From NCBI GenBank assembly GCA_016937295.1, contig JAFGWF010000070.1:1-32524 (forward strand): a stretch of DNA of 32,524 bases. Direction: 5' to 3'. The DNA comes from Bacteroidales bacterium. GTDB taxonomy: Bacteria > Bacteroidota > Bacteroidia > Bacteroidales > UBA1556. The notes below the pieces were generated by a model that saw only the letters and a list, made by a program, of their open reading frames with translations, did no database searches and was not told the DNA's origin. Position numbers and translations under genes: made by a program. Every line of letters starts with the position of its first letter. Position 1 is the stretch's first letter. Below are positions 5,082 through 9,441 of the stretch, in pieces.

Positions 5082-6824
5082 CTATCGATTAATAATTATT
5101 CGTGAAACAGATTGAGAAGATGTGTTGGGGTTGAAAATTTTAACTATATAAACCCCATTTAGAAGGTGGTTTACGGCTAAATTAGTTTCTTCACCTGAAA
5201 TCCATAAATTACCTTCGTTAATCAATTGACCTTCAATAGAATATATTTGATATTCAAGTTTTGAATTTTGTGCTTCAGCAAATCTGAAATGGACAAATTG
5301 GTTAGCTGGGTTCGGAAATGCTGTAAAACTGACAGGTTTAGAGCTAATTGTTTTAAAACCTGTGATTTTGTGTTTATTTATGGTGAAACTAATATTTGAA
5401 ACGGTGTCGAAGGAATTAGCGAGATTGATGCCAATAATGTCAGATTGGAGACCTGTAATTTCACCCAGAATTACATATTGACCGGTGCTTAAATCGTTGA
5501 ACTCAAAATAGCCATTCGAGTCGGTAAAAGTATAATTTGCAACTTCTGCATTTTGGTTATATAGAAGTAATTCAACATTATCAACGGTTGAAAAAGCAGC
5601 ATTGTTTGATGAAACATATCCTGATATTTGGCAATTACCGGGAATATTAAATGTGGGGTTTAAAAACACATTCGCCAAAGAAATATCCTGAAAAAGATTT
5701 AGGGTTACGCCATTATTCCACAGTACGTTATCCCCGTAATAGGTTGGTGCATAATCTTTACTGTAAGCGGAGCTATCGGGAAGAAGAACTTTCACTTTAT
5801 GCTTTCCTTCCGGAACTTGAAAGAAATAATAAACTCCAAGAGTGTCATTCACTGAGGTCAACCTGACGGTGTCGATTGGCTTGAAATAGTTGTTCGGATA
5901 TTCTTTATAAAGGTAGGCAATACACTTATCAATGGTATAAGGACCGGCATAAACTCTGCCCCATAAGTTATAAGGTTGTGGATTGGCCACATTAATAGGA
6001 TAAGAAACGGTGCTGGTACATCCGCTTTGTGTGGTTATTTTCAATTGCACAAAATAAATTCCTGCATAAGGAAAAATATGGGTTGGGTCTTGTAGATTGC
6101 TGCTATCTCCATCATCAAAATACCATTGCCACGAAACAATATTGGTTGCATGTATGGAATTGTCGTGAAAATAAACTTTTAACGGGTTTGTAAGACTATC
6201 AGCAATTGCCGTAAATGATGCCTGACAAGCAATGCCTCCCGGGTTGATGGTAATGGTATAACTATAGGACGACTGACATCCGGTTTTTGAAGTAATATTC
6301 AACACGACTAAAAAATTGCCGGTATTATTGTATTGATGCATAGGATGTTGGGCTGTGGAGTTGGTGCCATCGCCAAAAGTCCACAACCACGTTAATATGG
6401 AATCGTTACTTCCTGCAAAAGAGTGGTCGGTGAAAGCGTAGGTATAAAGTGGCGCCGAGGGTACTTGCACGAAAGTAAAATATGCCATACATGCTGGTGG
6501 AATAATTTTTTCAACGTGAATAGTATCGACAAACAGGTCATGGCAATTGTTGGTTGTGGTCATCTTTAAGGAAACGATATAAACTCCCTCAGAGAGATAT
6601 TGGTGCTCAGGACTGTACTGTTTACTGGTGCTTCCATCGCCAAAATCCCAAATATAATTAGCCGTAAATCCGCTGTCATGTTCAGACAGATTTTTGAATT
6701 CATAAGTAAAACTCGAAATATCATCTAAAATTTGGTAATCGAATTTAGCATCGCAAATTTGACTTTTAACATTCAGATTTAGGAGAAATAAAGAAAGAAT
6801 TAATATAATGGTATATCTATTCAT
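5082..6824 (-). CDS. PKD-domain secreted protein with T9SS C-terminal sorting domain
   Basis: Signal peptide MNRYTIILILSLFLLNLNVKSQ; three PKD-like repeats (WDFGDGST..., WTFGDGTN..., WYFDDGDSS...); SdrD/CarboxypepD_reg-like domain; CTD FPNPANQFVHFRF...LLNGVYIVKIFN...RIIINR. Confidence 0.9.
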   Translation of the reverse strand: MNRYTIILILSLFLLNLNVKSQICDAKFDYQILDDISSFTYEFKNLSEHDSGFTANYIWDFGDGSTSKQYSPEHQYLSEGVYIVSLKMTTTNNCHDLFVDTIHVEKIIPPACMAYFTFVQVPSAPLYTYAFTDHSFAGSNDSILTWLWTFGDGTNSTAQHPMHQYNNTGNFLVVLNITSKTGCQSSYSYTITINPGGIACQASFTAIADSLTNPLKVYFHDNSIHATNIVSWQWYFDDGDSSNLQDPTHIFPYAGIYFVQLKITTQSGCTSTVSYPINVANPQPYNLWGRVYAGPYTIDKCIAYLYKEYPNNYFKPIDTVRLTSVNDTLGVYYFFQVPEGKHKVKVLLPDSSAYSKDYAPTYYGDNVLWNNGVTLNLFQDISLANVFLNPTFNIPGNCQISGYVSSNNAAFSTVDNVELLLYNQNAEVANYTFTDSNGYFEFNDLSTGQYVILGEITGLQSDIIGINLANSFDTVSNISFTINKHKITGFKTISSKPVSFTAFPNPANQFVHFRFAEAQNSKLEYQIYSIEGQLINEGNLWISGEETNLAVNHLLNGVYIVKIFNPNTSSQSVSRIIINR

Positions 6825-6827
6825 ACG

Positions 6828-8384
6828 TTATAAAAAATAATAAGTAAAACCGGTTCTAAGCCCATGACCATAAGCACGTTGGGTGCTTTCGATATAGGCC
6901 GGATATTGATAAAATAAGGCTACGGCTTCTGTATTAAAATGAAGTCTTTCGGTTAGTTTGAATATGATTCCGGCATTTAAACTGTAGCTAATATTGGTTT
7001 TAGTTCTGTTTTGCGATGGAAAATAAAAGTTTTTCATTACAGACTGGTTGTCAAGCTCATATAGACCTTTAATCTTGGAGGACAATAAAACGGAATACTT
7101 AATTCCAAGTCCGGCTTTCAAGGAAAATCGTTTAAGATTTTTGACATAACCAACATGGAATGGAATATTCATCCAATAGTTTTGGGTTAATGCAATGGAC
7201 GAAAAACTATGATCAATATCATCATAAACTTTTTCTTGATGCCCATACGCAACGGGTGTATAGGTTTGGTTTACAGGGTCGAAGGTGAAACTGAGTGAAT
7301 CTGTAACAAACTGCATTTTCACAAATTCATAACGTGAATAGTCGATTGTGTATGGAGTTTTTTCTTCCGACATTCCAAATCCTAATCCAAGTTCTGCAAT
7401 TAGATGAATGTTTTGGTAAGTGAAGCTTACATCTAATTCATGTTGATTTACATTGTTGAATCCGGTTACTATATTGGATGGATTATAACTCAAGCTCAAT
7501 CCTTTTTTATCAATATTTCTTGGGTTAAGAGGCAGTGTTCCCGGTTTTTCTTGGTAGTCTTCTTTTTTATCCGCAGCATTTTCATTCGAAGCTACTAACG
7601 GATTATGAATTTTAGCTGTGTCTGTTTGTAATGTATCTATGTGTGGTTCAACATTCTCATTTGCAACCACATTGTCAACGGCAACTATACTTTCTTTTAT
7701 TAGAACAACTTCTTCCGGCTGATTGATTTTCGGTTGAATTTTAGCGACTTTCGAAGTTAAAACAGGAATTGCTTGATAGACAACAGACGAAATCGGATGC
7801 TGACTAACAGCAAGGGTTGGTATGTCATCAGTGCTATAAAAAGTCTTGTAACGGTTGGAGTTTTTTATCCCTGAGTTCTTTTTAACCACAGTAGCTTGTG
7901 ATTCTGTTGTGCTTGATTCGATTTTTAATTCGCGCGGTTCAATGGTGTTTTCACGGGGCGTGGCTTTTTCATCGAACGATGGATTGTCCGTTGTTGGTTT
8001 TAAAGGTTGAGCAGCTTCCTTATGCAGGGATTCAATGGGAGCAATTGGTTGAGATTCTGCAATTTTAGGCTCTATACTTTCTCCAGAAGGTTTATTAAAA
8101 TACAAGTAGGAAGCGAAACCAAGAAGGATAAATGCGGCGGCAATGCGTCTGAAAACAGGTGATTTATAGAAAGGTATCTTAGGTTTTAGAGTTGCGGCAA
8201 TTTTTTTCCAAAGATGTGGTGGTGGGGCAATTTCCGGTTTTTCTAATTTCGAGCGAATAGCTTCATCGTTTAAAGAGGGAGAAGAAGCCATATTATGCGC
8301 TATTTTGCTCCACAATCCATCCGGAGGTTCAGAAACCGCATCAGACAGTTTCGCTTTTACTATGTCGTCGAAATTTTCAATCAT
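6828..8384 (-). CDS. Anti-sigma-like inner-membrane protein with C-terminal outer-membrane beta-barrel domain
   Basis: ATG at 8384 (MIENFDDIVKAKLSDAV). Short N-terminal domain with two PPxxLWxKI-type motifs, single TM (RRIAAAFILLGFASYLYF), long polar linker, then alternating beta-strand region ending GLRTGFTYYFL. Follows the ECF sigma gene with an 8-nt overlap. Confidence 0.75.
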   Translation of the reverse strand: MIENFDDIVKAKLSDAVSEPPDGLWSKIAHNMASSPSLNDEAIRSKLEKPEIAPPPHLWKKIAATLKPKIPFYKSPVFRRIAAAFILLGFASYLYFNKPSGESIEPKIAESQPIAPIESLHKEAAQPLKPTTDNPSFDEKATPRENTIEPRELKIESSTTESQATVVKKNSGIKNSNRYKTFYSTDDIPTLAVSQHPISSVVYQAIPVLTSKVAKIQPKINQPEEVVLIKESIVAVDNVVANENVEPHIDTLQTDTAKIHNPLVASNENAADKKEDYQEKPGTLPLNPRNIDKKGLSLSYNPSNIVTGFNNVNQHELDVSFTYQNIHLIAELGLGFGMSEEKTPYTIDYSRYEFVKMQFVTDSLSFTFDPVNQTYTPVAYGHQEKVYDDIDHSFSSIALTQNYWMNIPFHVGYVKNLKRFSLKAGLGIKYSVLLSSKIKGLYELDNQSVMKNFYFPSQNRTKTNISYSLNAGIIFKLTERLHFNTEAVALFYQYPAYIESTQRAYGHGLRTGFTYYFL

Positions 8385-8928
8385 TACCAGTTCTATATAT
8401 TTTATTAATCTTATGTTGGAGAAGAACTCGTGCACGAGAAAGTTGTGATTTTGAGGTGTTTTCAGTTATTCCTAAAGTTTCGGCAATAACTTTATGCGAA
8501 AAACCCTCAATCACAAACAGGTTAAAAATGGTACGATAACCATCAGGCAACGTTTGCACAACCGATAGAATTTCTTCCGTTGTCATTTGGGAAATTGCAT
8601 CAGCCTCTCGAATGGAAATATCGTAAACCTCATCGATATCTTTTTCCATTTTCTGCTGCAAATTCTTCTTGTAATAGTTAATTGCTGTGTTTACCATCAC
8701 TCTGCGCAACCATCCTTCAAATGAACCTTCTCCTTTATAATCGTTAATATACCTAAAAATACGAATAAAACCCTCTTGCATAATGTCTTCAGCCGACATA
8801 ACATTTTTGGCGTACCTCAGACAAATTGGCCAAAGCTTGGGAGAATACTTATCGTATAACTCCTTTTGAGCCAATGCGTCTCCGGCTCGGCATCCGTTTA
8901 AGATATCCTCGTCGTTTAGCATTAGCAC
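8377..8928 (-). CDS. RNA polymerase sigma-70 factor, ECF subfamily
   Basis: Sigma region 2 (LYDKYSPKLWPICLRYAKNVMSAEDIMQEGFIRIFRYI...GSFEGWLRRVMVNTAINYYKK) and region 4 (LPDGYRTIFNLFVIEGFSHKVIAETLGITENTSKSQLSRARVLLQ). Confidence 0.95.
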   Translation of the reverse strand: MLMLNDEDILNGCRAGDALAQKELYDKYSPKLWPICLRYAKNVMSAEDIMQEGFIRIFRYINDYKGEGSFEGWLRRVMVNTAINYYKKNLQQKMEKDIDEVYDISIREADAISQMTTEEILSVVQTLPDGYRTIFNLFVIEGFSHKVIAETLGITENTSKSQLSRARVLLQHKINKIYRTGND

Positions 8929-8992
8929 TTTGGTTTTTGCAATGGGTTATGGAGACAATATTTTATATGATATAGTTGCATATTTATTTACA

Positions 8993-9011
8993 AATAAGAA
9001 TGATTCTTATT
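8993..9011. promoter_or_regulatory. Perfect 9-1-9 palindrome, Fur-box-like, upstream of the ECF sigma gene
   Basis: AATAAGAAT-G-ATTCTTATT; the inner TAAGAATnATTCTTA resembles the 7-1-7 Fur family operator TGAGAATnATTCTCA/TGATAATnATTATCA. Lies about 65 nt upstream of the sigma start and overlaps the stop codon of the TPR gene. Confidence 0.5.
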
Positions 9012-9441
9012 AGTCCGCCTTGTTTTCTTCTATTTCACAATGTTTTACAATGAGTTTCATAGCCTTTTTAAAACCTAAGTTATAAGCTTCGGTAAAATCC
9101 TCACAAGCTTTCTTGTTAGCATTTAACTCTAAGTGGGAAAGACCTCGATAAAAATAAACTTCGGCATATCCCGGAACGAGAATTAAGGCCAAATCGAAAT
9201 CTTGAATTGCTTCTGAAAACCTTTTTTCAAAATATTTACATACACCTCTGAACGCGTATGCTTCCTCATGTCCTGCATCTTCCAAAATAGTGGAATCGCA
9301 ATACAATATCGCTGTTTTGTAATCCTTTGAATCAAAAAATTCGTTGGCTCTCTTGAAATAAATATCTCCTTTTTCATTTTGAGCCTGGAGATTAACAGAA
9401 ATCGTTACTGTGAATACTACTATGAACACTATTTTAATCAT
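9010..9441 (-). CDS. Secreted/periplasmic tetratricopeptide (TPR) repeat protein
   Basis: Signal peptide MIKIVFIVVFTVTISVNLQAQ, then TPR motifs (YFKRANEFFDSKDYKTAILYCDSTI, AYAFRGVCKYFEKRFSEAIQDFDLAL, AEVYFYRGLSHLELNANKKACEDFTEA). Confidence 0.85.
   Translation of the reverse strand: MIKIVFIVVFTVTISVNLQAQNEKGDIYFKRANEFFDSKDYKTAILYCDSTILEDAGHEEAYAFRGVCKYFEKRFSEAIQDFDLALILVPGYAEVYFYRGLSHLELNANKKACEDFTEAYNLGFKKAMKLIVKHCEIEENKAD

Follow-up and report, generated by a model that had tools for sequence, protein, structure and literature searches.

The analysed window, a stretch of 32,524 nucleotides from a Bacteroidales bacterium (assembly GCA_016937295.1, contig JAFGWF010000070.1), carries on its minus strand a cassette of three genes, which encode an ECF sigma factor, a predicted trans-envelope anti-sigma factor and a secreted protein with a type IX secretion system (T9SS) sorting tail. 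The features of the locus are as follows.

9010..9441, minus strand: gene for a small secreted TPR protein, located upstream of the cassette (TPR Pfam matches)
8953..8980, minus strand: candidate promoter TGCAAC-N16-TTGTCT for autoregulation by the sigma factor, recovered by a de novo search of the regions preceding homologous cassettes
8377..8922, minus strand: ECF sigma factor gene, 181 aa, ATG at 8922 with a GTG alternative at 8928
6828..8384, minus strand: trans-envelope anti-sigma factor gene, 518 aa, role predicted
8295..8372, minus strand: N-terminal motif copy 1, about residues 5-30, FDDIVKAKLSDAVSEPPDGLWSKI, presumed sigma-binding; model helices 5-16 and 24-30; common to the aligned homologues
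8190..8273, minus strand: N-terminal motif copy 2, about residues 38-65, NDEAIRSKLEKPEIAPPPHLWKKI, identified by its resemblance to copy 1
8097..8159, minus strand: inner-membrane helix, residues 76-96 (hydropathy and a helix in the AlphaFold2 model)
7518..8093, minus strand: disordered periplasmic tether, residues 98-289 (pLDDT below 50 throughout; polar composition)
6831..7508, minus strand: 8-stranded outer-membrane beta-barrel, residues 293-518 (AlphaFold2 strands, Foldseek matches)
5082..6824, minus strand: third gene of the cassette, 580 aa; encodes a secreted PKD-repeat protein (PKD_4 E 5e-37) that ends in a T9SS type A sorting tail (Por_Secre_tail E 3e-13, TIGR04183)

An earlier preliminary description of this DNA did not give the minus strand, and mentioned neither the T9SS surface protein encoded alongside, nor the autoregulatory promoter, nor the candidate small RNAs considered below.

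Regions 2 and 4 of the ECF sigma factor are clear (Sigma70_r2, E 3e-16; r4_2, E 4e-15), and the protein scores under the cut-offs of TIGR02985 and NF058625. It is 96% identical to its counterpart in the sister species and 37-66% identical to the other aligned cassette sigmas. The TPR gene is a conserved neighbour within the genus, found at the same place in L017, L018, L019, L021 and L022; it probably lies outside the sigma-dependent unit, since the promoter sits between it and the sigma gene. Immediately after the sigma gene, as the preliminary description had placed it, comes the anti-sigma ORF, whose ATG at 8384 gives an 8-nt overlap with the end of the sigma gene (stop at 8377) and whose last sense codon lies at 6831. 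The PKD-repeat gene begins 3 nt past the anti-sigma stop.

The same description had read the ORF as a single chain with one hydrophobic helix, a polar linker of roughly 200 residues and a C-terminal outer-membrane barrel, and we recovered each of these elements. The helix, RRIAAAFILLGFASYLYF, is the sole convincing hydrophobic segment of the ORF (best Kyte-Doolittle window at 77, 1.44). We modelled the ORF alone with AlphaFold2 from a 13-sequence alignment, and this placed helices at residues 5-16, 24-30, 38-47, 56-65 and 76-96, those of the N-terminus with low confidence (pLDDT about 45-65). The linker of ~190 aa, rich in K/P/E/T/S, was unstructured except for one three-residue turn. Barrel strands spanned residues 293 to 517, with pLDDT mostly above 90. 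When the model was compared with the PDB using Foldseek, the first-ranked matches were the 8-stranded outer-membrane barrels Ail and OmpX (OmpX/Ail E 3e-6), with further top matches to OmpA (E 2e-5, TMt 0.64), NspA (TMt 0.66) and OmpW (TMt 0.62). Pfam applied to the anti-sigma protein alone would miss the barrel, because the PF13505 signal is negligible (E = 0.63); in the barrel homologues, OMP_b-brl families were detected as PF13505 in 9/18 and PF13568 in 7/18 (E up to 0.1). A sequence search of solved structures returned no relative.

Computation also revealed an internal duplication at the N-terminus. Motif copy 2 is identical to copy 1 at 10/28 positions, and an equal score was reached in 0/10000 shuffles. 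The motif pattern, roughly D...K/L...PP...W..I, recurs across the aligned homologues, and its duplication was found only in the window, G005 and G008 among 18 of them. Judging from this sequence pattern, the N-terminus would bind sigma. A homologue from a Saprospiraceae MAG (L077:7693-9747) carries about six tandem copies of the motif, followed by a membrane helix and barrel.

Relatives of the anti-sigma protein were found in 13/60 genomes searched, and a profile built from 18 homologues matched in 148/247 genomes of the order; the viral contigs searched held no relatives. We read 79 sigma/anti-sigma pairs with the same layout, from 33 families, in which the median gap is a 4-nt overlap. The layout is thus not a chance arrangement: the search elsewhere that the preliminary description had suggested shows that it recurs beside ECF genes throughout the order. 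Among the aligned homologues the barrel is conserved, and the linker is conserved neither in sequence nor in length.

The preliminary description had further proposed an unusual trans-envelope anti-sigma factor in one polypeptide. Structure prediction, homology and gene order uphold the architecture and the likely role, but the architecture is not new, because Dma2 and Reo have the same layout. Dma2 of Bacteroides thetaiotaomicron consists of an anti-sigma domain, a membrane helix, a disordered tether and a barrel, and is encoded beside an ECF21 sigma factor; deletion of dma2 induces its own operon, and the dma2 vesiculation phenotype requires the sigma factor (PMC13088901). The layout of the Dma family is given in the available text of that paper, which cites Pardue et al. 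2024 PNAS. The available text of PMC9308784 and PMC13114119 describes Reo of Phocaeicola vulgatus as a protein that crosses all five compartments and proposes that it responds to outer-membrane stress; its regulon is induced when Reo is lost or when the cells are exposed to antibacterial toxins. In Bacteroides/Phocaeicola, then, loss of Dma2 or Reo derepresses the sigma factor and its own operon (PMC13088901, PMC9308784). Four hallmarks of these systems are present in the window: an adjacent ECF sigma, a short cytoplasmic N-terminus with a single inner-membrane helix, a long disordered tether and a C-terminal barrel. Likened by layout and description, the window architecture is therefore an already known one, shared with the Dma/Reo anti-sigma factors that occur in Bacteroides and Phocaeicola. 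Our profile A2 picks up named homologues from Parabacteroides and Tannerellaceae (E 2e-20 and 4e-17), the comparison with Dma1-3 and Reo being by description only.

The resemblance to Dma1, Dma2 and Dma3 with their Das sigma factors extends to the N-terminal anti-sigma domain, the one helix, the tether, the barrel, the adjacent ECF sigma and the presence of downstream operon genes. The third gene differs, encoding a DUF4943 protein in the case of Dma2, where the available text does not mention T9SS (PMC13088901), and a T9SS protein in the window. The window anti-sigma also differs from Dma in its duplicated N-terminal motif and in the small-RNA candidates that share its promoter. Reo/EcfO of Bacteroides fragilis and Phocaeicola vulgatus is alike in having an anti-sigma factor described as spanning all five compartments and a proposed role in the outer-membrane stress response; in the available text its regulon includes NigD surface lipoproteins, and no T9SS partner is reported there (PMC9308784, PMC13114119).

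If the N-terminus were a plain membrane anchor, the C-terminal protein would have a function in the outer membrane alone, and control of the neighbouring sigma would lie elsewhere. Sigma binding by the N-terminus is a prediction here, which leaves some room for this explanation. However, the N-terminal motif and membrane helix recur next to sigma genes throughout the examined homologues, even where the barrel has been replaced or split off and none is attached, and the genetics of Dma2 and Reo likewise argue against it, so we regard it as very improbable. In all likelihood, the anti-sigma protein extends from the cytoplasm through to the outer membrane and restrains a transcription factor.

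Several variants of the cassette were seen. At L066, L101, L106, L124 and L080, a sigma-adjacent protein with the anti-sigma motif and membrane helix has a T9SS type B sorting tail (TIGR04131) in the barrel's place; L072, L086, L102 and L113 are weaker examples, and in the genome of the window itself L051:1-914 is a candidate whose gene is truncated by the contig end and which has the FSPNGDGNNDVF motif only, with no HMM match. These sigma-adjacent TIGR04131-tail proteins are possibly anti-sigma factors whose C-terminus is exported by T9SS. An apparent split form occurs at L063, L064, L074, L105, L130 and similar loci (Pedobacter, Cytophagales-type), where the sigma gene is followed by one for a one-helix protein of ~250 aa and then by a separate gene of 270-360 aa; OMP_b-brl_2 was detected in 2/5 scanned. 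Tandem pairs of sigma/anti-sigma/T9SS cassettes on the same strand were found at L023, L172, L173, L176, L177 and L179. At L017:16732-18600 (G005), repeated translated units FNSSMVRLG suggest a CRISPR array.

We assessed the association with T9SS at loci that were picked by the anti-sigma profile and not by their third gene. A T9SS sorting-tail protein was the next gene in 75/77 readable loci from 33 families, as against 19/145 controls, the controls being other genes of the same loci matched to TIGR04183 (Fisher p 3e-38, uncorrected for shared ancestry). The next genes comprised 74 TIGR04183 (type A) proteins and 1 TIGR04131 (type B) protein, counted as 75 different genes, and the median gap from the anti-sigma gene was 11 nt. 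T9SS itself is near-universal in the sampled order (PorU-like in 220/247). The surface partner is not universal, because, within the same order, homologues of a class with weaker scores mostly lack it: judged from tail sequence, the next gene was T9SS-like in about 5/20, and in about 8/20 it encoded a protein of ~330 aa, the 2 scanned examples of which have an SLT transglycosylase domain. This second class of barrel anti-sigma, followed by the conserved ~330 aa protein, includes L226, L229, L235, L236, L238 and L242-L244, with an SLT lytic transglycosylase in both scanned. As far as we found, a T9SS partner beside a Dma/Reo-type anti-sigma goes beyond the described systems; in the part of the literature covered by our search, neither such a partner nor a small-RNA arm is described for these anti-sigma factors.

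To characterize the promoter, we ran an unsupervised dyad search on the regions upstream of 78 sigma genes. With a spacing of 16 nt, the pair TGCAAC and TTGTCT stood out far beyond what shuffled sequences gave. The dyad was present with up to 2 mismatches in 40/78 upstream regions, compared to 3.8 expected, and exactly in 16 of the 78, among them the window (8980-8953), where shuffling gives zero expected copies. Such a conserved dyad is what one would expect upstream of an ECF operon that regulates itself, and the window sigma itself would read TGCAAC-N16-TTGTCT. In 27 other genomes, exact matches were far more numerous than those of a reversed-pattern control; they often lie in front of sigma cassettes or of genes for secreted proteins, several of these with T9SS cargo-like ends. 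The whole genome of the window contains three exact matches only, the one in the window and two on contig C263 that lie 100 nt apart; with one mismatch allowed there were 16 matches (the 3 exact ones included) versus 11 in the control, with no clear enrichment. A paralogous sigma/anti-sigma/T9SS cassette on contig C162 of this genome (L050) has ATAAAC as its -35 box and not TGCAAC, so that the two regulons would stay apart. In other families, some copies of the dyad stand 150-250 nt ahead of the sigma gene; inspection of these leaders turned up no clear conserved RNA. In two species (L348 and L366), a one-mismatch promoter, AGCAACC-TTGTCT, is conserved upstream of a gene that reads as serine-hydrolase-like, secreted or membrane-anchored, and divergent from a gene that reads as mutS-like.

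The T9SS protein could also be the barrel's ligand or lid at the surface, in which case its loss, cleavage or failed export would free sigma and the cassette would monitor T9SS export or surface integrity. The tight, order-wide association and the short gap between the genes are consistent with this, as is the precedent of Porphyromonas gingivalis, in which PorA, a surface protein with a T9SS sorting tail, acts upstream of the PorXY-SigP ECF pathway and is thereby tied to ECF sigma activity, although that pathway uses a two-component system and not a barrel anti-sigma factor (PMC7712824). However, the association is equally explained if sigma, in an autoregulated operon, has the third gene among its targets, and dyad matches elsewhere, too, precede large secreted proteins with T9SS-like tails. 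No N-terminal domain common to the third genes emerged. We therefore hold the ligand or lid role to be a possibility worth keeping, though not the one we favor.

The two dyad copies on C263 each end in an intrinsic terminator, 63 and 91 nt past the -10 element, which makes these units candidate tandem small RNAs. In the sister species G005 we found the same three exact dyad sites and none further. The 216-nt RNA block is 98% identical between the two genomes, compared to 82% and 72% for its flanks; identity at four-fold degenerate sites of the neighbouring genes and of the cassette genes is 39-67%. The second RNA unit is present in 8 species of the genus, with TGCAAC kept in 8/8 and the -10 end TCT in all. 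Its terminator and internal hairpin contain 5 pairs with compensatory changes, and its pairing and covariation measures were reached by 0 to 2/500 shuffles, except for the count of further pair types. This unit occurs in 7/7 genomes with a protein-level anti-sigma orthologue versus 1/4 without (Fisher p 0.024; a small sample in which some genomes are incomplete). Rfam gave no match for the window or the RNA loci. Within the RNA, the segment TTTTTCATAAGTA has complementarity to an ATG-AAA-AAA start context. We claim no RNA target, because genome-wide start-context matches of TTTTTCATAAGTA barely exceed the reversed control (33 versus 26), with a minority at plausible gene starts; start-codon pairing as a target mode is unsupported by this enrichment.

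Just downstream of the RNA units, on the same strand in 8 species, lies a barrel-like gene of 243-273 aa, 37-202 nt past the terminator where measured; the two examples scanned fall under the Pfam cut-off. This proximity would fit a terminated leader (attenuator) of that gene instead of trans-acting small RNAs. Two full promoter-terminator units stand in tandem in two species, however, conservation falls off at the terminator, and the gap from terminator to gene is long and variable; we consider a leader less likely than not. T9SS genes are likewise among those covered by an ECF-type motif in Flavobacterium psychrophilum, and a putative RNA, Rfp11, appears in the same table as T9SS genes and a sigma/anti-sigma pair (PMC9723704). 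This grouping is an independent precedent for the combination of T9SS, sigma/anti-sigma and RNA.

Taken together, the locus most likely encodes an outer-membrane surveillance switch that amplifies itself, along with a surface protein and small RNAs. The cytoplasmic N-terminus, with its two tandem helical motif copies, would hold the ECF sigma at the inner membrane, the ~190-residue disordered tether would cross the periplasm, and the 8-stranded barrel in the outer membrane would report its own state. When the barrel is perturbed, unassembled or receiving a surface signal, sigma would be freed; this sequestration and release upon outer-membrane disturbance is modelled on Dma2 and Reo, and we infer the nature of the signal, the release mechanism and the function of the RNAs within the proposed switch. 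Freed sigma would then transcribe its own operon from TGCAAC-N16-TTGTCT, yielding more sigma, anti-sigma and T9SS-exported surface protein, and in this genus would also transcribe the two small RNAs. We are largely confident in this overall reading, a Dma/Reo-type dual-membrane-spanning anti-sigma system whose freed sigma transcribes its own operon with the T9SS protein and two small RNAs. More speculatively, the T9SS protein might serve as an input, as PorA may, or as an output only, and the RNAs might have regulatory roles.

Two better-known routes of envelope signalling offer a comparison. Cell-surface signalling through FecR and a TonB receptor links an outer-membrane event to an ECF sigma but needs separate proteins; we rejected it here because Pfam finds neither a FecR nor a TonB-receptor domain. 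E. coli sigmaE with RseA is an outer-membrane stress sigma that also drives the sRNAs MicA and RybB; RseA has no barrel, and sensing proceeds via DegS/RseP. The proposed window switch resembles sigmaE as an outer-membrane stress sigma driving small RNAs, but the candidate RNAs are without an Rfam counterpart. Slightly less likely than not, in our estimate, is a further formulation in which the barrel anti-sigma controls the ECF sigma and the core regulon consists of its own operon with the T9SS surface protein and the two small RNAs in tandem. The system would then be for Bacteroidota what sigmaE with MicA/RybB is for E. coli, with a third, surface component.

In conclusion, the locus is best described as Dma/Reo-like, complemented by a T9SS partner and, probably, by a small-RNA arm. 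What appears new relative to Dma and Reo is the cell-surface protein in the operon and a switch that apparently drives two small RNAs. The locus joins three topics of Bacteroidota biology that have been studied apart: type IX secretion, small RNAs and anti-sigma factors whose chain extends to the outer membrane. Its conserved, surface-exported gene is a concrete candidate for the sensor input or the output of Dma/Reo-like proteins, and the ECF promoter, conserved and found again at two terminated RNA units, marks places where an RNA response to outer-membrane stress can be tested directly.
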